Origin: Bacteroidales bacterium
GTDB lineage: Bacteria; Bacteroidota; Bacteroidia; Bacteroidales; UBA932
Assembly (NCBI GenBank): GCA_024398125.1
Contig: JAKSJO010000026.1
Coordinates: forward strand, 1-35,706
Direction of reading: 5' to 3'
Length of the DNA stretch: 35,706 nucleotides
The position numbers were made by a program, and so were the translations under genes. The notes under the pieces are model-generated. The model saw only the letters and a program-made list of their open reading frames with translations, was not told where the DNA came from and ran no database searches. Positions 878-8,531 of this stretch are shown in pieces. Position 1 is the stretch's first letter. The number at the start of each line of letters is the position of its first letter.

Positions 878-940
878 AAAACATATCTTTCGGTAAAAAA
901 CGGAAAAACTTTCGGTTACGTTTTTAGAAAGATATGTTTT
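878..940. repeat. 14-bp perfect inverted repeat upstream of the left Rpn gene
   Basis: AAAACATATCTTTC at 878-891 is the exact reverse complement of 927-940, with a 35-bp A+T-rich spacer. The right arm lies within the 47-bp block shared with 8111-8157; the left arm is absent from the right copy. It could be a hairpin in the leader, an operator, or part of a small mobile-element end. Confidence 0.5.
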
Positions 941-947
941 TTACCTT
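901..947. repeat. Island-flanking inverted repeat, left copy
   Basis: These 47 bp match the reverse complement of 8111-8157 with one mismatch (position 927). Each copy lies immediately upstream of an Rpn-type remnant in that remnant's own orientation. The simplest reading is a conserved 5' region of the same element. Because the copies are inverted and 7.2 kb apart, they are also potential substrates for inversion of the whole fimbrillin island. Confidence 0.8.
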
Positions 948-1025: not shown

Positions 1026-3059
1026 TTAGGGTGTTGGAGGAATGAACGATACCGGATAGATTGTCCATGTATTATTGCTATTAGTTCCCGATGTTTCAAC
1101 ATTATCTCCATTCCACCTTAAATACTTAGTGCCCCAATTACTATATGAGAACTTAAGACCCTTTGCTAAAGTCCAGTTTTGACTATTGCCAAGCGATAGA
1201 TCGTTTCTCAAATACTTAGCTTCATCTGCTTTCTTTATAGCTGTGCTATTTGAGTTTGCAGTGAACTCCCATAAGCAGTTTATACCATATTCAGCGGAAG
1301 CTGTACGTTCATGTTTGATATACTTATTATCACTTGAGGCAATAACGTATATCTTCGAAGTGTCATATCCAATGTCATTAATACCGCTGCCGAGGCTTAT
1401 GCCATAAACCTTAACGTCAACTGTGTTATCGGCGTCCAAATCTGAACCGTCGGTGAACTGAACATTAACGGTCAATTGATGTGTTTCACCTATAGTTTTA
1501 TTGCTGTTTGTAAGGCTGTGCGCCGTAGTTGTGCGGTATGCTGAATAGCCTGTTACATCGTCACCAGAAACCCTTTCACAAGCCCAGCCGTTAAGAGTAA
1601 CCGCAGCAAATTCATCAAGCTCATCGCCAGTCTTATCAAGCCAGAACTCAATCTTGCCCTCCTGACCGTGTACTAGCCATTTGTTTCCTCCTGTATAGTC
1701 ACGTGCCTGGTCGCTGACCTTAGCGGTACCGGTACCGCTTGGCACTGTACCGACACTGATGCTGTATGGAGTTGCGTATATTCTCGACTTTGACGAAGTC
1801 TCATCGGAGAAATCGGTAGCGGAGAGATGTACGTAGCCATCGCCAGCCGTGGTAGGCATAATATCAAGTACAAATCCGTTTGTCTTCTCTGCAGCATCCA
1901 CCTCATACTCCCATTCGGTGTAGAGATTGCCATCTCCATAGTCAACATTATCTTTTCTGTTGCTATAGCGAGACACATTTGCACCGGTTGGCTCAAAGCC
2001 GATGAGGCCGACCTTTATCGTGCTGAGGTTGTCTATTGCATCTTGAACACCACCAAGATCGAAGGATACCTGAGTCGCAACATCCTTTGTCGTCCTTGAA
2101 GGAAGACTGATGTTGTTGAAGTGGCCGGTTGCACCGGCAGGGACCTCAAGGCGACCGAGTGTGATGGTCACGGCATTTCCAGTTGATACATTGCTAAGTG
2201 AAATGTTATCCTTATAAAGAGTCATCTCTGTGTCGCTGATACGACAGTGTACGGAGGCTTTTACTTTCACGTTCATATACGAATGTTTAAACGCAAAAGC
2301 AAAAACTTTAAGCATTTCTGTAGTCTTTATCGTCGTAGGCTCAAACTCTACGACAATGGTATTTGATCCAGTATTATCAATCACCTCACCTGTCTGGATA
2401 TCGCTATCACAGTCTCCTGCCACATTCTCATTGAAATCCAAGGTGATTCTGTCGATCACTGCCGGCACAGACTCGGGCGATTGAATTTCAAAAATGAATG
2501 CATTAACACATGGGAAGAAGTTCAGCGTCGCTCCAGAAGAATTTACACTTGCATTGTAAGAACGGATGAAAAGGCTATTTGGATCATACACAACATGGTT
2601 GTTCCCATTTTTCTCCACTACGCCATGTTGCACAGAAGGCAAAGTGAGACTGATTTTTCCGTTGTATCTTCCCGTTTTGTAATCAACATTATAGCTCTTC
2701 ACTGCCTGTCTCGGATAATATGCATAGAAAGTATGAGGATTTGTTCCCCACTTTATTTCAGGGCATGCAAAATCAGTAGAATTTCCATCACTGAGCGCGG
2801 TGAAAGTCATTTCATTATTTGCAGTTAACTGCTTGCTATAGAAAAAAACCTGATCACCTTGCTTCCATGAAGCCGGATATCTGCCGCCACTAACAACATC
2901 AGACAGCGTCACCTTTGTTTCAGATGGGAATTCCGACATTATGACACCTTTAAACAAATGATCTGAAGTCCCTATGATGTCGATCTCTTTATTGCACGAT
3001 GAGACACCGCAAATCAAGGCAATAAAAAATGATAATAGTGTGTATATATTCTTTTTCAT
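1026..3059 (-). CDS. Fimbrillin-family lipoprotein, large, left operon (677 aa)
   Basis: This is a predicted surface lipoprotein of the Bacteroidales fimbrillin (Mfa-like/type V pilus) superfamily. The chosen start (3059) gives a lipoprotein signal, MKKNIYTLLSFF..., with lipobox VSSC and lipidated Cys22. A longer reading from 3080 would overlap the upstream gene and put polar residues before the signal. The N-terminal half has family hallmarks: a SWKQGDQVFFYS segment and FYAYYP near residue 110. The C-terminal half is unlike the right operon's large protein and ends in a W- and Y-rich stretch (KYLRND, NWTLAKG, KYLRWNG) that may be a ligand-binding module. It starts 5 bp after the stop of the preceding fimbrillin gene, so the two are co-transcribed. 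The size and divergent C-terminus suggest a tip or accessory adhesin, but this is inference. Confidence 0.8.
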   Translation of the reverse strand: MKKNIYTLLSFFIALICGVSSCNKEIDIIGTSDHLFKGVIMSEFPSETKVTLSDVVSGGRYPASWKQGDQVFFYSKQLTANNEMTFTALSDGNSTDFACPEIKWGTNPHTFYAYYPRQAVKSYNVDYKTGRYNGKISLTLPSVQHGVVEKNGNNHVVYDPNSLFIRSYNASVNSSGATLNFFPCVNAFIFEIQSPESVPAVIDRITLDFNENVAGDCDSDIQTGEVIDNTGSNTIVVEFEPTTIKTTEMLKVFAFAFKHSYMNVKVKASVHCRISDTEMTLYKDNISLSNVSTGNAVTITLGRLEVPAGATGHFNNISLPSRTTKDVATQVSFDLGGVQDAIDNLSTIKVGLIGFEPTGANVSRYSNRKDNVDYGDGNLYTEWEYEVDAAEKTNGFVLDIMPTTAGDGYVHLSATDFSDETSSKSRIYATPYSISVGTVPSGTGTAKVSDQARDYTGGNKWLVHGQEGKIEFWLDKTGDELDEFAAVTLNGWACERVSGDDVTGYSAYRTTTAHSLTNSNKTIGETHQLTVNVQFTDGSDLDADNTVDVKVYGISLGSGINDIGYDTSKIYVIASSDNKYIKHERTASAEYGINCLWEFTANSNSTAIKKADEAKYLRNDLSLGNSQNWTLAKGLKFSYSNWGTKYLRWNGDNVETSGTNSNNTWTIYPVSFIPPTP

Positions 3060-3064
3060 ATTCC

Positions 3065-4120
3065 CTAAAGTCTTTCCCAAGGATATGTGGTATTATTTGA
3101 AAGGTCCTTATCATTAGGATCATCTACTATGCCCATCATTGCGGTGCTGAAGGCAAGCCCAGATTCAGAAGCTGTTGGAAGATCACTGAATGGAGAGGCC
3201 TTAAGATATATTTTGCTTCCAGCAGTGATGGTGACATTGTCGACGGTCGCAAAATATGTCTTGTCTTTGTCATCCTTGTCCTTACAGAATACCTTCACTT
3301 GAAGAGGATTTGAATTGCTTATTTCAGTGAATGGAAGGAATACCGTGAAGGTTGCCGTTTCGGCATGCTCCTCATCTGCTGCGCCATTAAGGGTGAGAGC
3401 TGATGTTGGAGCCCAGGTTACGGTCTTCTCGGAAGGTGCCGCATAAGCAGTATTGCTTGCAGGCAGATATGAAAATGTTCCGTCTCCGTTGTCTGGCATC
3501 CTGGTCTTGAAGGCAACACTGTTCACTATTCTTCTTCCTGCATCAGTCGCATCGTCAGCCTTTCCTACCAGAGTGATGACAAGTGTTGTCATGATAGGCT
3601 TAAAAGCCAGCGACACGACATGGTCTGGCGCGGTTTCGTATGTCAAACCAGAAGCAGAGGCTACCATGAATGCGTTTTTCATGTAGTCACTGGCATTATT
3701 CTGGGTGTAAGGGATGGGAAATGTTACCCTATGGTTGTTATATGTGCCCTTGGCTTTAGGATATGATGCATAGAAGTCGTGCGAAGTTGTCCTATCATAC
3801 CATTTGAGAGATGTACTCTCAGCACTAAGGCTGCACTCCCAAGGCTGCGATGTATTTATTGCAGTTACTGAATAAGCGGCCGACTCTAGCTGAGGGTCGG
3901 AATGTTCGTCATCAAAGCTACTGAAAAGGTCAATTTTGTCGCCATCCTCCCAAATAAGCTGGAAGGAATTCGTATTTGAATAATTGGCCTTGGTGCTATA
4001 TCCATCGGCCTTGAAAATGATTTCATGCTTGTCTGCGTTACCAAGCACATCACATGAACATATCATCGATGCGACTACAAGCGCATAAAACATTGTCTTA
4101 ATAATACTGAGTCCTTTCAT
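3065..4120 (-). CDS. Fimbrillin-family lipoprotein, left operon (351 aa)
   Basis: Start 4120 is chosen because it gives a clean lipoprotein signal (MKGLSIIKTMFYALVVAS, Cys23 in MICSC) and leaves a 16-bp gap after the small leader gene; an in-frame upstream ATG at 4186 lies inside that gene. Fimbrillin hallmarks include LIWEDGDKIDLFSSF, FYASYPKAKG and AFKPIMTTLVITL. It is a clear paralogue of the right-operon 339-aa protein: TFPIPYTQNNASDYM matches TFPVPINQSNADGFM, and AFKPIMTT matches SFKPIMTT. Expected fate by family knowledge: lipidation, transport to the outer membrane and assembly into or anchoring of a fimbria. No internal promoter was seen; expression should depend on the promoter segment at 4389-4917. 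Confidence 0.8.
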   Translation of the reverse strand: MKGLSIIKTMFYALVVASMICSCDVLGNADKHEIIFKADGYSTKANYSNTNSFQLIWEDGDKIDLFSSFDDEHSDPQLESAAYSVTAINTSQPWECSLSAESTSLKWYDRTTSHDFYASYPKAKGTYNNHRVTFPIPYTQNNASDYMKNAFMVASASGLTYETAPDHVVSLAFKPIMTTLVITLVGKADDATDAGRRIVNSVAFKTRMPDNGDGTFSYLPASNTAYAAPSEKTVTWAPTSALTLNGAADEEHAETATFTVFLPFTEISNSNPLQVKVFCKDKDDKDKTYFATVDNVTITAGSKIYLKASPFSDLPTASESGLAFSTAMMGIVDDPNDKDLSNNTTYPWERL

Positions 4121-4136: not shown

Positions 4137-4313
4137 TTAGTCCCAACTAAACTCAAACGGGTCCGCTTCGCTGAGACCTGTACCATTGTTTGCCTGTTCC
4201 TGAATGGTCACCGCTGTAGCTGAAGAGGTCACCTCAAGTGATCTCACCACCATGATAGGCTCAGACGAAACTGTGTATTCAACAAGTTCTGGGGTTATGT
4301 AATATTTTTTCAT
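4137..4313 (-). CDS. Small leader protein of the left fimbrillin operon (58 aa)
   Basis: A short complete reading frame begins MKKYYITPELVEYTV and ends ADPFEFSWD, with TAA at 4137-4139. It has no signal peptide or membrane segment. It is the first gene of the left operon, 16 bp ahead of the 351-aa fimbrillin and 34 bp downstream of the inverted repeat at 4348-4388. The mirror position in the right operon holds a similar protein (59 aa, MKRKTAYLSPSIEIY...TDPFAIDGWD). Shared features are a basic start, a T/S-P motif near residue 8-10, an acidic C-terminus and a terminal DPF...WD tail. Short proteins of this look are common ahead of Bacteroidales surface-protein genes, but I know of no assigned function. 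Conservation across the two cassettes supports a real gene. Confidence 0.75.
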   Translation of the reverse strand: MKKYYITPELVEYTVSSEPIMVVRSLEVTSSATAVTIQEQANNGTGLSEADPFEFSWD

Positions 4314-4347
4314 ATATGTGTGACGGATGTCCTTTGCTATATTTCCG

Positions 4348-4388
4348 GTTTATATATCATTCTTCCGCGCTTCGAATCCCCGCAGGAT
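4348..4388. repeat. Inverted repeat IR-L of the putative invertible promoter
   Basis: These 41 bp are the reverse complement of 4918-4958 with a single mismatch. The copy lies 34 bp upstream of the left small leader gene. Similarity fades quickly at the inner edge (only GCAGGAT shared) and weakly continues at the outer edge. Such near-perfect identity next to strongly diverged genes suggests a recombination site or recent gene conversion. Confidence 0.85.
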
Positions 4389-4774
4389 TGGTTGAACAGC
4401 ATTTTAAACGACTGTATTACATCTGCTTGGTTATTTGGCTTGACATGTCCGGCCCAATGTTTTCCCAAAACAAGCTGTCACCTTTCGCTAAATCTATTCC
4501 CCGTAAAGGATTGGCAAGGAGACAAATCCCCAGATGGTCATAATACTAGTTTAGTTTTCCCCACAGATATCCCATATCCCTAGAAAAAGGTGGCACGAAT
4601 TATTGTTTATACCTTCCAAAGACGCCGAAAGTATGGGAAAAACCAGTAAAAAGAATCAGAATTGGTCCGGAGTACAATAGGAATATTCTGAAGAATAATA
4701 GTAAAAAACGGACACTTATATATATAATGATTAGATTTTTGCAAAAATTCGTATGAATAAACACATCCTTGTTT

Positions 4775-4782
4775 TAATTTTG
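4775..4782 (+). promoter_or_regulatory. -7 promoter box TAATTTTG, right-facing
   Basis: A perfect TAnnTTTG match. The -33 region is weak (TTCG at 4748-4751, 23 bp upstream). Transcription would start near 4790, giving a leader of about 175 nt that passes through the hairpin and IR-R before the small leader gene at 4966. Confidence 0.6.
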
Positions 4783-4815
4783 TATTTGGAAAAGTTGTGC
4801 GACGCTTTCAAGCAA

Positions 4816-4839
4816 GCCTGATTGACAAGATAATCAGGC
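4816..4839 (+). promoter_or_regulatory. Leader hairpin downstream of the invertible promoter
   Basis: A perfect 8-bp stem (GCCTGATT 4816-4823 with AATCAGGC 4832-4839) with an 8-nt loop lies in the predicted 5' leader and moves with the invertible segment. There is no long T tract after it (CGTTGTTTGGTG), so it may be an attenuator, a protein or RNA binding site, or part of recombinase recognition. Confidence 0.5.
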
Positions 4840-4917
4840 CGTTGTTTGGTGTTATACAGCAAATTGCAAAACGAACAGATAATCAAAACAGCAACAATAG
4901 TAAAGTCGAGACTTCTG

Positions 4918-4958
4918 ATCCTGCGGGGATTCGAAGCACGGAAGAATGATATATAAAC
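4918..4958. repeat. Inverted repeat IR-R of the putative invertible promoter
   Basis: This is the partner of 4348-4388, matching at 40 of 41 positions in inverted orientation. It ends 7 bp before the ATG of the right small leader gene, so the promoter's transcript would cross it. Confidence 0.85.
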
Positions 4959-4965
4959 GGAGAAT

Positions 4966-5145
4966 ATGAAAAGAAAAACAGCATACCTCTCGCCAAGCAT
5001 CGAGATATATCCACTCTACCTGAGCGGCAGCTGCTGCCTGCAAGGGTCGGAGGTTTCTGCTGTCAACAAGGAGAAAAAAGTTGAAGTCATCAAGCAAGAT
5101 GACCTTAGCGATACCGATCCATTCGCCATCGACGGATGGGATTGA
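4966..5145 (+). CDS. Small leader protein of the right fimbrillin operon (59 aa)
   Basis: A short reading frame begins MKRKTAYLSPSIEIYPLY and ends TDPFAIDGWD, with stop TGA at 5143-5145. It has a Cys-Cys pair near residue 23 and a Lys/Glu-rich middle. It occupies the same place in its operon as the 58-aa protein at 4137-4313 and shares the S/T-P motif, acidic tail and terminal DPF...WD. Its stop overlaps an ATG at 5145 in the next frame, which suggests translational coupling to the downstream fimbrillin. Function unknown; coding status is supported by the paired, conserved architecture. Confidence 0.75.
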   Translation: MKRKTAYLSPSIEIYPLYLSGSCCLQGSEVSAVNKEKKVEVIKQDDLSDTDPFAIDGWD

Positions 5146-5171
5146 TGAACAACATGATTACAGAAAGGATT

Positions 5172-6191
5172 ATGAACAATAGGATAAGCATATTAGTTCT
5201 TGGGGCTGCGGTTCTGCTTTCAGCGTCATGCGAGAAGATCCAGTCAGGAAGAGGAAATGCCGTGTCATTCTCAACCGGCATCAGTTCCACCAAGACATCA
5301 TACAATAGCTCTGACGTCTGGCTCATCGAGTGGATTGAGAATGATAAGATAAAAGTGCATTCAGAGGAGTGTTATGGTCCCCTTGAAAAAGAAGCGACTT
5401 ACAAGATAGCGCCCGGTACTATCTCGAACGAGTCAGACAGATCCAAGGGAGACTTCCTGCCTGAGGATGAAAACGCCCAGCTCTACTGGGATGCTGATCC
5501 GGAGGCCAACCACACATTCTCGGCGGTCTACCCGGCTGGCAAAGGCGTCTGGTCCAGCGGAGACATTTTCACTTTCCCTGTACCTATTAATCAGAGCAAC
5601 GCCGATGGTTTCATGGAAAACTGCTATCTCGTTGCAAGAAATACAAATGTGAAGAATACTCTTGCAAAGGGATCTGTGCTGCTTTCCTTCAAGCCTATCA
5701 TGACGACCATTGAAGTCACTGTCCAGGGAGCGACGGAAGATGCTTCGCTCAATCGCACCCTCAGCCACATAGATTTCACAACAGCAATGCCTTGTGATGG
5801 AGAGAATAAGTTTGCGTACAATACGGCATCTGAAACCGCGACAACGGCAACGAAATCAACAACAATCGTCTGGACCCCTACCGATGACACCAAGAGCATA
5901 GCCGGCAGTGCTACTGCAGAACCAAACAAACTTAAGTTCAACGTATTCATCCCGTATGTGGAAATCAGCTCGTCAAACAAGGTCCAGATTGATATCTATT
6001 TCAAGGACGAAACGGATGCTGACCAACACTATACCGCAACACTGAACCCAAGCAGTCCTATTTCGGCAGGCGCCAAGAAAAAAATCGTTCTTCCTACCCT
6101 TATGAAGAAGTCGTATATCGGCGAACAGAATCTTGAACCTTTCCAGGGAGAGGAGAGCGACACAAATGACGATTGGAAGGAAACACTTTAA
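5172..6191 (+). CDS. Fimbrillin-family lipoprotein, right operon (339 aa)
   Basis: The chosen start at 5172 gives a standard lipoprotein signal, MNNRISILVLGAAVLLSASC, with Cys20 followed by EK. In-frame ATGs at 5136, 5145 and 5154 are alternatives; 5145 overlaps the stop of the leader gene. Family signs are LIEWIENDKIKVHS, FSAVYPAGKG, TFPVPINQSNADGFM and SFKPIMTTIEVTV. It is a paralogue of the left 351-aa protein, with similar order and spacing of motifs. The likely role is a structural or anchor subunit of a type V-like fimbria, exported as a lipoprotein. It is followed 10 bp later by the large fimbrillin gene. In the drawn orientation this operon is the one served by the promoter at 4775. 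Confidence 0.8.
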   Translation: MNNRISILVLGAAVLLSASCEKIQSGRGNAVSFSTGISSTKTSYNSSDVWLIEWIENDKIKVHSEECYGPLEKEATYKIAPGTISNESDRSKGDFLPEDENAQLYWDADPEANHTFSAVYPAGKGVWSSGDIFTFPVPINQSNADGFMENCYLVARNTNVKNTLAKGSVLLSFKPIMTTIEVTVQGATEDASLNRTLSHIDFTTAMPCDGENKFAYNTASETATTATKSTTIVWTPTDDTKSIAGSATAEPNKLKFNVFIPYVEISSSNKVQIDIYFKDETDADQHYTATLNPSSPISAGAKKKIVLPTLMKKSYIGEQNLEPFQGEESDTNDDWKETL

Positions 6192-6201
6192 TAGTATAGA
6201 C

Positions 6202-7911
6202 ATGCGAAAATCAAATATATTCTTGCTATTTGCCATTTTCTCAGCATCACTTTTTTCAGGATGCGACAAGGCTATCATATCTCCTGATCCAGAGTCGCAG
6301 GAGGAAGAAGTATGCTTCACAGCTGAATTGGCTAGCCCTGTCGAGATAGATGCCCTTACGCGCGTCGCGGTAGGATCGTCCCCTAGTATAGTATGGTCAA
6401 CAGGAGACAAGATCGGTGTGTTCAACAGTTCTGCACAATCTGAGTTCACATTAACAGAAGGAGCTGGAGAAACTCATGGAAAGTTCAACGGTTTCATCGA
6501 CAATGGCTACGGTAACGGACCATTCTTCGCCTATTATCCATACAGTGCAAGCGTCTCAAAAGCTGGCAGCAAGATCAGTGGCCTTTCGGTTCCTCATTTC
6601 CAGAATGCAACAGCTGGTTCATACGATCCAGCCGCAGCTCCAATGGTTGCATACACAGTAGACAAGACTGTATATTTCAAGCATGTCTGCTCATTTGTCA
6701 AGATTACTGTAGCTAATAATAATGAGGACTTCAAGTATCTTTCCAGAATCACCATCAAGTCCAAGAACGGGGAGACCATAGCCGGCACTTGCAGCGCTAC
6801 AGTCGGGACAGACAACTCGGTTTCTGTCGGTGATTATAGTGACGATTCAGACATGATTGTTCTCTCCGCTCCAAGTGGAAGTTCAATTGCACCAGGAACC
6901 TACTATATAGCCGTCCTGCCTGCAACTTTGACAAATGGTTATGAAGTCATCTTTGACACTTCAAAATACACTTACAGAAGAATTCTCAAAGACGGATTGC
7001 CAGCAAGAGTTTTCGAGAGGGCTCATGTAAGAAATCTAGGCAGCTTTGCCAAGGATTGGACCTGGACAGACGTAAAAGACCAGGAAATCCTTTATGGTGG
7101 AGACTATAGCAACTCTGGAGGAAAACGCATTTATTTTTCCAAGGGAAACCTTCAGGCTATCATGGGTGGACCAACATCGGTCAAACAGTGGAGATTTGCT
7201 CAAAACCAGTATGATGTCATAAAAGATGCATCCGGAAACGCGAAGCTTAAAAGCAGGGATTACGATTTTGTGGATGGGGATGTAGTCGACTTATTTGCTT
7301 GGCAGGATGATGCAATTGGTGCTACTGATCCATTAAAGAAATATGGTATCAACAACATGCCGGCGGGTAAGACAAGCGGGCAATGGTTGTATTTCGACAA
7401 TAACACCAAAACAAATTCAAATGCATCAAGTGCACAATGTACTTCATGGGAAGAGGCAATAAATGCCGGAAATGTTCATGAGTGGAGTATGCTTTCTACT
7501 TTTGAGATGAACTGGCTGATGGGAAGTAGATCAAATGCACGAGGTGGCTCATTCTGTACCATCACATTGCCCGATGGAACGACCACTGTTGTCGGATACT
7601 GGCTTTACCCGGCAGGGTCGATCAAATGGTCAGGTTCGGTTCCAACAGTATTAGACCTTTCAACAGAAGACGGAAGAAACACTTATGATGAGTTTGAAGC
7701 GAAAGGAACTGTTTTCATTCCTAGGGGAGGATATATTTCCAGCACCAATTATCAAGCTGCCCATGCGCGATATTGGTCAAAAGGTGTCCAACTCACCGGT
7801 ACATCTGGAGGTGGCTCTGTGTATAATCCAACTTGTATTACTAATTCTACTGTGGGAACAGCTGCTGCTAACTGTCTTCAAAATGTTCGACTGGCAATCG
7901 TTGAGAATTAA
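6202..7911 (+). CDS. Fimbrillin-family lipoprotein with C-terminal KGNLQ-type domain, right operon (569 aa)
   Basis: Start 6202 gives the signal MRKSNIFLLFAIFSASLFSGC with Cys21 and an acidic stretch after it (DPESQEEE) of the kind linked to surface export in Bacteroidetes. Residues about 30-290 are fimbrillin-like (IVWSTGDKIGVFNSS, FFAYYPYSASVSK, FKHVCSFVKITV, GTYYIAVLPATL). From about residue 305 comes a domain common in Bacteroidales surface proteins (RIYFSKGNLQ, QWRFAQNQYDVI, VDLFAWQDD, EWSMLSTFEMNWLM, IPRGGYIS...RYWSKG, NVRLAIVEN), resembling the formylglycine-generating-enzyme/lectin-like fold; that fold assignment is tentative. A two-domain layout fits a tip adhesin. The left operon's large protein has a different C-terminal half, so a switch would change the exposed adhesin. 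Confidence 0.82.
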   Translation: MRKSNIFLLFAIFSASLFSGCDKAIISPDPESQEEEVCFTAELASPVEIDALTRVAVGSSPSIVWSTGDKIGVFNSSAQSEFTLTEGAGETHGKFNGFIDNGYGNGPFFAYYPYSASVSKAGSKISGLSVPHFQNATAGSYDPAAAPMVAYTVDKTVYFKHVCSFVKITVANNNEDFKYLSRITIKSKNGETIAGTCSATVGTDNSVSVGDYSDDSDMIVLSAPSGSSIAPGTYYIAVLPATLTNGYEVIFDTSKYTYRRILKDGLPARVFERAHVRNLGSFAKDWTWTDVKDQEILYGGDYSNSGGKRIYFSKGNLQAIMGGPTSVKQWRFAQNQYDVIKDASGNAKLKSRDYDFVDGDVVDLFAWQDDAIGATDPLKKYGINNMPAGKTSGQWLYFDNNTKTNSNASSAQCTSWEEAINAGNVHEWSMLSTFEMNWLMGSRSNARGGSFCTITLPDGTTTVVGYWLYPAGSIKWSGSVPTVLDLSTEDGRNTYDEFEAKGTVFIPRGGYISSTNYQAAHARYWSKGVQLTGTSGGGSVYNPTCITNSTVGTAAANCLQNVRLAIVEN

Positions 7912-8110: not shown

Positions 8111-8157
8111 AAGGTAAAAAACATATCTTTTTAAAAACGTAACCGAAAGTTTTTCCG
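8111..8157. repeat. Island-flanking inverted repeat, right copy
   Basis: This is the inverted partner of 901-947 (46 of 47 positions). The match ends abruptly at 8157, where coding sequence from the middle of an Rpn-type gene begins, marking a deletion junction. The block contains TATCTTTT, a 7/8 match to the -7 consensus. Confidence 0.8.
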
Positions 8158-8531
8158 AGTGCGAGACTTTCGAGGAAAAGCTATACTTTTGTATGCGGCA
8201 CATGTTCAAGCTGGAGAGCCGTCCCGAGAATCTTAGGGGAGAATACTTCGACAATCTCTTCAAGGCGGCTGATACCGCGAACATGACCGCAAAGGAACAC
8301 GAAGCATACATATTAGCCATGGCATCAGAACGCGACATAAGAAACCAGATCAGGTACGGCCGAATTCAGGGTCACAGGGAAGGTCACAAGGAGGGCCTGG
8401 AAGAGGGACTCGAGAAAGGCAAAGCCGAGGGAAAGTTTGAAACAGCAAAGAAGTTAAAGGCTGCTGGCATCGCCCTCGATACCATTGCAGAGTGCACCGG
8501 CCTCGATATCGAGATGGTCAAGGCTCTTTGA
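8158..8531 (+). pseudogene. PD-(D/E)XK (Rpn-like) nuclease-transposase, 5'-truncated remnant
   Basis: The open frame lacks the entire nuclease core and encodes only the C-terminal part: ECETFEEKLYFCMRHM, then ENLRGEYFDNLFKAADTANMT and a repetitive Gly/Glu/His/Lys stretch (GHREGHKEGLEEGLEKG), ending IAECTGLDIEMVKAL, like the left copy's tail. The first in-frame ATG is 8193, but homologous coding extends upstream to about 8158, where it is fused to the conserved 47-bp block. This points to a deletion from the 5' region to mid-gene. It keeps exactly the middle portion that the left copy lacks. Its TGA (8529-8531) abuts the convergent stop of the U32 gene at 8532. A truncated 112-aa product is possible but is unlikely to be a nuclease. 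Confidence 0.78.

Follow-up and report, generated by a model that had tools for sequence, protein, structure and literature searches.

Promoter inversion is a known means by which Bacteroidales vary their surface. In the portions of the published texts that were available, the B. fragilis tsr19 (BF2766) recombinase is described as acting on a local and also on a distant site (PMC4747536), and recombinases are said more generally to be sometimes encoded apart from their sites (PMC5903667). The same portions report that fimbrillin genes are enriched beside invertons (groups 137, 112 and 122; PMC11892184), and describe a phase-variable B. fragilis locus whose product had earlier been described as fimbrial, for which the authors could not then show fimbriae (PMC12632263). 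The Bacteroidales -7 promoter consensus is given there as TANNTTTGY, paired with a -33 element (PMC12632263). A narrow search of the literature found no two-way single promoter between divergent operons.

We analysed a stretch of 35,706 bases (hereafter, the window), which is the whole of contig C19 in an assembly of 2.34 Mb and 49 contigs that is 97.6% complete. The initial annotation had proposed that an invertible promoter lies between two opposed fimbrillin operons of this contig. Inversion is the best-supported, and most likely the correct, reading of the 629 bp at 4339-4967 (50-bp arms included), for which we infer the flip itself and the enzyme; we put the probability that the segment is invertible at all at roughly 0.6. 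This part of the proposal is supported by the arms and by reversed segments in another genome of the same genus, but the promoter part fared less well, as the promoter boxes are not above chance. The features are collected in the table.

Table. Features at and around the proposed invertible segment, in window coordinates.
Feature	Positions	Strand	Remark
Outer repeat, left copy, before a PDDEXK_2 (Rpn) gene	901..947	.	Dispersed repeat
Left large lipoprotein-like protein, distantly fimbrillin-like	1026..3059	-	BLAST
Left fimbrillin-like lipoprotein, 351 aa	3065..4120	-	Mfa_like_1 above cut-off, E 9e-16
58-aa ORF, first of left operon, ends DPFEFSWD	4137..4313	-	No Pfam match
Left arm, inner inverted repeat	4339..4388 (41-bp core 4348-4388)	.	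40/41 core, 46/50 full
CTTG-18-TAGATTTA, left-pointing promoter-like pair, one -7 mismatch	4489..4518	-	Chance-compatible
Interior, proposed invertible segment, 529 bp	4389..4917	.	No Rfam match; short ORFs reach in
TAATTTTG, sole exact TAnnTTTG of the interior, 135 bp from right arm	4775..4782	+	Chance-compatible
9-bp hairpin with weak T-rich tail, between right-pointing box and right arm	4816..4839	+	Fold z -1.85
Right arm, inner inverted repeat	4918..4967 (41-bp core 4918-4958)	.	Repeat comparison
59-aa ORF, first of right operon, DPFAIDGWD at end	4966..5145	+	No Pfam match
Right fimbrillin-like lipoprotein, paralogue of left	5136..6191	+	Homology; no own Mfa_like_1 match
Right large fimbrillin-like protein	6202..7911	+	Mfa_like_1 E 2e-4, below cut-off
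Outer repeat, right copy, before a piece of a PDDEXK_2 gene	8111..8157	.	Dispersed repeat

Operons of comparable kind lie on both sides of the segment, each reading away from it, with their ORFs open, and the fimbrillins point to a member of the Bacteroidales. The two proximal lipoproteins are 31% identical over 324 aligned positions (E 2e-38), and the two distal proteins 23% identical over 228 (E 1.7e-4). By BLAST, the left distal protein (queries spanning 1026-3080 or 1026-3053) matched only the right distal protein and the neighbouring subunit at 3065-4120 (E about 2e-4), and it matched no fimbrillin family; the ORF of the right distal protein is open from 6133, where its query started. None of the NCBIfam models matched the four large proteins at E <=0.01, and a search for solved-structure relatives gave nothing convincing, its one match being to a ribosomal protein (E 0.05). 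Lipoprotein signals were predicted by eye from the N-termini. By these matches, the subunits at 3065-4120 (Pfam) and 5136-6191 (homology) would be classed as type V pilus (fimbrillin) lipoproteins; the description of the locus as two opposed fimbrillin operons thus holds for the subunits, but weakly for the distal genes.

The arms proved to be as first described when recomputed: their 41-bp cores are inverted copies of each other, match at 40 of 41 positions and enclose 529 bp. At the extended length of 50 bp, 46 positions match (92%). Counted from the inner edge, the exact-match blocks measure 20, 20, 1, 0 and 5 bases; as no exact block exceeds 20 bases, it is unlikely, we reason, that the assembler mixed up the two arms. 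A 31-base core pattern, allowing <=3 mismatches, was matched twice in the window and never in 100 dinucleotide shuffles. In a sample of the same genome (351 kb in 20 stretches; gap <=2.5 kb), a single pair was equally strong (57/61), and the best pair with a gap of <1 kb was 21/21. The former is a 61-bp inverted repeat at 3571-3631 and 6063-6123 of locus L125 (contig C47), its copies 2431 bp apart; the latter is a perfect 21-bp inverted repeat at 3140-3160 and 4031-4051 of locus L107 (contig C3), its copies 870 bp apart. Across 197 kb of loci selected because they hold fimbrillins, recombinases or the outer repeat, only L060 was equally strong (443/447 and 96/99). No internal dyad above chance was found in the arm, 203 of 300 shuffles being as good. 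The repeats had also been placed just ahead of the first gene of each operon, which is where they lie: 25 nt separate the left arm from the start codon of the 58-aa ORF (5' end 4313), and the right arm shares 2 bases with the start codon of the 59-aa ORF at 4966.

The two arms are the only copies of this sequence in the assembly, which holds 28 fimbrillin matches, so that the 41-bp block does not stand upstream of many unpaired fimbrillin genes genome-wide, an outcome that the initial annotation had named as one that would count against inversion. The arm core (<=3 mismatches) is absent from 399 other genomes of the genus and from 397 other genomes of the family (237 from other genera and 160 from the window's genus, most of which are also among the 399), and the whole segment has no relative in 100 other genomes of the genus. 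Exact 22-base patterns gave 0 matches in the viral_contigs and genome_contigs sets, from which the window's own and very near genomes may be excluded. Of the 399 genomes, 18 hold relatives of the subunits (E <=1e-12); at the 19 loci around these relatives, several of which are cut by contig ends, no long bracketing repeat was found, the only repeats being 19/19 in L091 and 16/16 in L103. A protein scan of genome_contigs returned 116 pattern matches, 0 of which were confirmed. The flipped arrangement that had been suggested as a check was sought in related genomes, and neither a flipped copy nor a relative of the segment was found in the genomes and contig sets searched.

It had been noted that the repeats could be conserved 5' leaders of duplicated cassettes, a view considered less attractive. 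Across 333 aligned codons of the paralogous lipoprotein genes, identity is 48%, 54% and 28% at positions 1, 2 and 3, so that silent positions are near background. In 25-base bins counted from the inner edge, the arms hold 24 and 22 matches, the next bins outward 7, 5 and 6, and the bins inward of the arms 8, 9 and 3. Since the arms stand at 40/41 while their neighbours are at background, they have been preserved by something acting on the arms alone. Leftover identity from a cassette duplication is thereby out, given third positions at 28% against arms at 40/41 and the sharp drop outside them, and the absence of other copies of the block in the assembly further disfavours it.

A static arrangement of divergent promoters, in which the arms are a shared 5' untranslated or operator block and nothing inverts, fares best among the alternatives, and we consider it unlikely. 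It would account for each arm standing immediately ahead of the start codon that opens its operon, for promoter-like pairs that point left together with one box that points right, and for the failure of our searches to find a cognate recombinase or a flipped form. A shared leader would, however, hardly be expected to be missing from the rest of an assembly so rich in fimbrillin matches, nor to lie at unequal spacings from the two start codons (25 nt on the left, a 2-nt overlap on the right). Moreover, a sharply bounded block of 41 bases at 98% identity would make a long operator.

Inversion beside fimbrillin genes could be followed in another genome of the genus, G013. Motif searches there found six segments of 109-110 bp between 17-bp arms, the arms 126-127 bp apart, at loci L146, L147, L148, L150 and L258. 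Five of the six are followed by a fimbrillin match at a distance of about 0.4-1.2 kb; copy b has no fimbrillin within 4 kb downstream among the matches listed. Each interior contains one exact box. That of copy a, TATCTTTG, borders directly on the arm and is directed towards the gene, and in copies b-f it points away. Compared with copy a, the interiors of copies b-f score 45 to 69 in inverted orientation and -13.5 to -7 in direct orientation, shuffled interiors scoring <=18 (200 shuffles); each of the ten flanks, by contrast, scores better in direct orientation. For the upstream 200-base flanks of b-f, the direct scores are 40.5, 104.5, 102.5, 19 and 60 (inverted, -20 to -27), copy e being weakly alike to copy a here; for the downstream 150-base flanks they are 61, 140, 142, 77.5 and 65.5 (inverted, -21 to -32). 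One of the six interiors is thus reversed relative to the other five, between flanks that are colinear. This comparison of paralogues within one genome shows that segments at fimbrillin genes invert in the genus.

The arms in G013 gave no alignment with those of the window, and the 17-bp motif has 0 copies at <=2 mismatches in the window's own genome. The motif was matched in 33 other genomes of the genus; at the surroundings of four of these 33, no second arm was found at the G013 spacing (<=5 mismatches), and most such single matches may be due to chance, as a reversed-pattern control also scored in several genomes. A repeat scan of 60 fimbrillin upstream regions from 29 genomes, hand-picked among the matches listed, found no arms of at least 19 bp; besides L146, it matched L129 (18/17), L158 (18/18 and 15/15) and L171 (17/16). 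Of the five G013 copies that the motif search later located in these regions, the scan had overlooked four, so that its failure to find more counts for little.

The interior of the window segment had been called gene-free. It has no Pfam match over the cut-off, but ORFs of 87 aa (4320-4583, plus strand), 89 aa (4731-5000, minus strand) and 81 aa (4852-5097, minus strand) reach into it. Two of the three had no Pfam match at E <=1, and the below-cut-off match of the other to Ycf66_N (E 0.0025) was taken as spurious. No known RNA family was found in the arms or the interior by Rfam, whose sole match in the window is a tRNA located elsewhere.

The argument for a switch had also leaned on a single perfect TAnnTTTG box pointing right with no equivalent pointing left. 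The exact count stands (plus strand, one; minus strand, none), but it is compatible with chance: over 1000 shuffles of the interior, a strand carries 0.40 boxes on average, at least one box is present on 34% of strands, and in 46% of shuffles just one of the two strands has any. Two weaker pairs point left: among TTG-box pairs with an 18-22 base gap and <=1 mismatch, the plus strand has 0 and the minus strand 2 (chance mean 0.70 per strand). Taken as a -7 candidate, TAATTTTGT in the interior has no TTG at the -33 spacing. With one-strand boxes so common in shuffles and no -33 TTG, the box carries no weight as an argument for the switch. In 205 upstream regions of the same genome, drawn with a crude ORF finder from slightly overlapping loci, 100 boxes are gene-directed and 63 opposite, and 19 of 94 have a TTG at gaps of 19-21. 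Terminator-like sites number 2 in 1.1 kb against a shuffle mean of 0.9. The sequence does not decide the direction of transcription from the segment.

If the segment does invert, its arms would be recombined in trans by a site-specific enzyme, probably a tyrosine recombinase, and the 529-bp interior would thereby flip. A one-way promoter within the interior would drive the right operon as assembled and, once flipped, the left operon. That it acts as a two-way promoter switch between both operons, as proposed at the outset, falls a little short of an even bet. More tentative still is the fuller model, in which the promoter toggles the cell between two diverged pilus operons, so that it would always make one pilus and never be bald, with the enzyme supplied from elsewhere. 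The segment might instead invert without being two-way, carrying interior promoters in both directions or in neither, so that a flip would swap promoters or change expression levels. The right-pointing TAnnTTTG and the left-pointing CTTG-18-TAGATTTA lie within the same 529 bp, an interior longer than the 109-110-bp one-box segments of G013, and both observations suit this alternative; but no box beats chance and the sequence hence favours neither version, and we regard the alternative as decidedly unlikely.

A recombinase with co-occurring sites had been proposed as a further thing to look for. Five Phage_integrase matches, one of which is interrupted by stops, were found in the genome; there was no Resolvase match, and the window's contig has neither. 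We read the integrase on contig C12 as XerD, from Pfam score and length only, and that on C23 as XerC, its best NCBIfam model, which it matches below the cut-off; the others are a 436-aa integrase on C28, a 325-aa recombinase on C34 and the broken copy on C1. No arm-like sequence was found near the five integrase loci, where the best ungapped scores were 9-10 against 9-12.5 for shuffled arms (a control of only 6 shuffled arms per locus). It is possible that a recombinase acts in trans, or that its gene is missing from the assembly. As tsr19 acts on a distant site too, according to the available part of its description (PMC4747536), a missing neighbouring recombinase is not fatal to an inverton in the window.

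The block of two operons is itself bracketed by an outer inverted repeat (46/47), of which contigs C2, C29 and C39 carry further copies close to their ends; being dispersed in this way, the outer repeats were rejected as a second specific switch. Outward-facing pieces at 272-829 and 8193-8531 correspond to N-terminal (over the Pfam cut-off) and C-terminal (below it) parts of PDDEXK_2/Rpn. Proteins of the PDDEXK_2 (Rpn) family are putative transposases or recombination-promoting nucleases. Elsewhere in the genome, at 3322-3684 of L060, a stand-alone ORF has a start nearly identical to that of the 8193-8531 piece and no outer repeat upstream. A small transposon or MITE with terminal repeats was tried and rejected, as the candidate is single-copy and has no target-site duplication (2-12 bp, at the two boundaries tested). 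That the arms are a relic without present function, whether they are the termini of a small non-autonomous mobile element or arose recently when a leader was duplicated in inverted form or copied by gene conversion, is very unlikely: the dispersed repeat and PDDEXK_2 pieces around the block do place mobile DNA nearby, but the arms are single-copy in the assembly, lack a 2-12 bp target-site duplication and differ in sequence from the outer repeat.

The 325-aa tyrosine recombinase of contig C34 lies between two outward-facing genes (L060, 6267-8624), which encode proteins of 989 and 983 aa with DUF4988/collagen-like N-termini (below cut-off) and whose 5' ends form the 443/447 inverted repeat. 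This locus is likely to be a recombinase-bearing two-way surface switch, judging from its arrangement, and paired surface-gene switches thus probably exist in the background of the window's own genome. Relatives of the recombinase occur in 22 of 249 other genomes of the genus (E <=1e-25), and at 2 of 11 relative loci, some of which are cut by contig ends, the gene is bracketed by repeats of at least 24 bp (L217 and L222). At L217 (7867-9399) and L222 (8254-9806), both arms hold CATTTATTCC and AATAAAT, a possible candidate for the recombination site of this recombinase family. No link was found between the C34 system and the window arms.

Were the two-way reading true, two different pili would be tied to one switch, giving forced alternation instead of loss, and two adhesion types would be predicted to coexist in one clone. 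The G013 result provides genome-level evidence for inversion of promoter segments at fimbrillin genes in a species-rich genus, and makes the inversion question testable from existing reads.

Among the systems available for comparison, the C34 pair resembles the window in that inverted repeats lie between two genes that face outward and look like surface-protein genes, but it carries a tyrosine recombinase inside the repeats, and its main repeat of 447 bp includes coding sequence. The G013 segments come from the same genus and are likewise repeat-bounded and intergenic with a fimbrillin downstream (five of six); they differ in their unrelated 17-bp arms, their 109-110-bp interiors, a box that abuts the arm, a one-way ON/OFF arrangement and the presence of both orientations among paralogues. 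The E. coli type 1 fimbrial switch is an on/off switch for one operon, with short repeats and adjacent recombinases, and type 1 fimbriae are unrelated to the fimbrillin type of the window. It shares with our reading the inversion of a fimbrial promoter. The switch is named in the available parts of PMC11868660 and PMC5903667. The B. fragilis tsr19/BF2766 invertons, as far as the available text of PMC4747536 describes them, are like the window in having inverted repeats that flank a promoter region upstream of surface-structure operons; unlike them, the window has like operons on both sides and arms of 41-50 bp, and neither a recombinase nor a second site was found for it. Inverton arms are given as 10-40 nt in the accessible portion of PMC11892184, which places the 41-bp core at the top of the range, and as typically 10-20 nt in that of PMC5903667, against which 41 is long. 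What is unusual at this locus is the combination of two complete operons with long, private arms.
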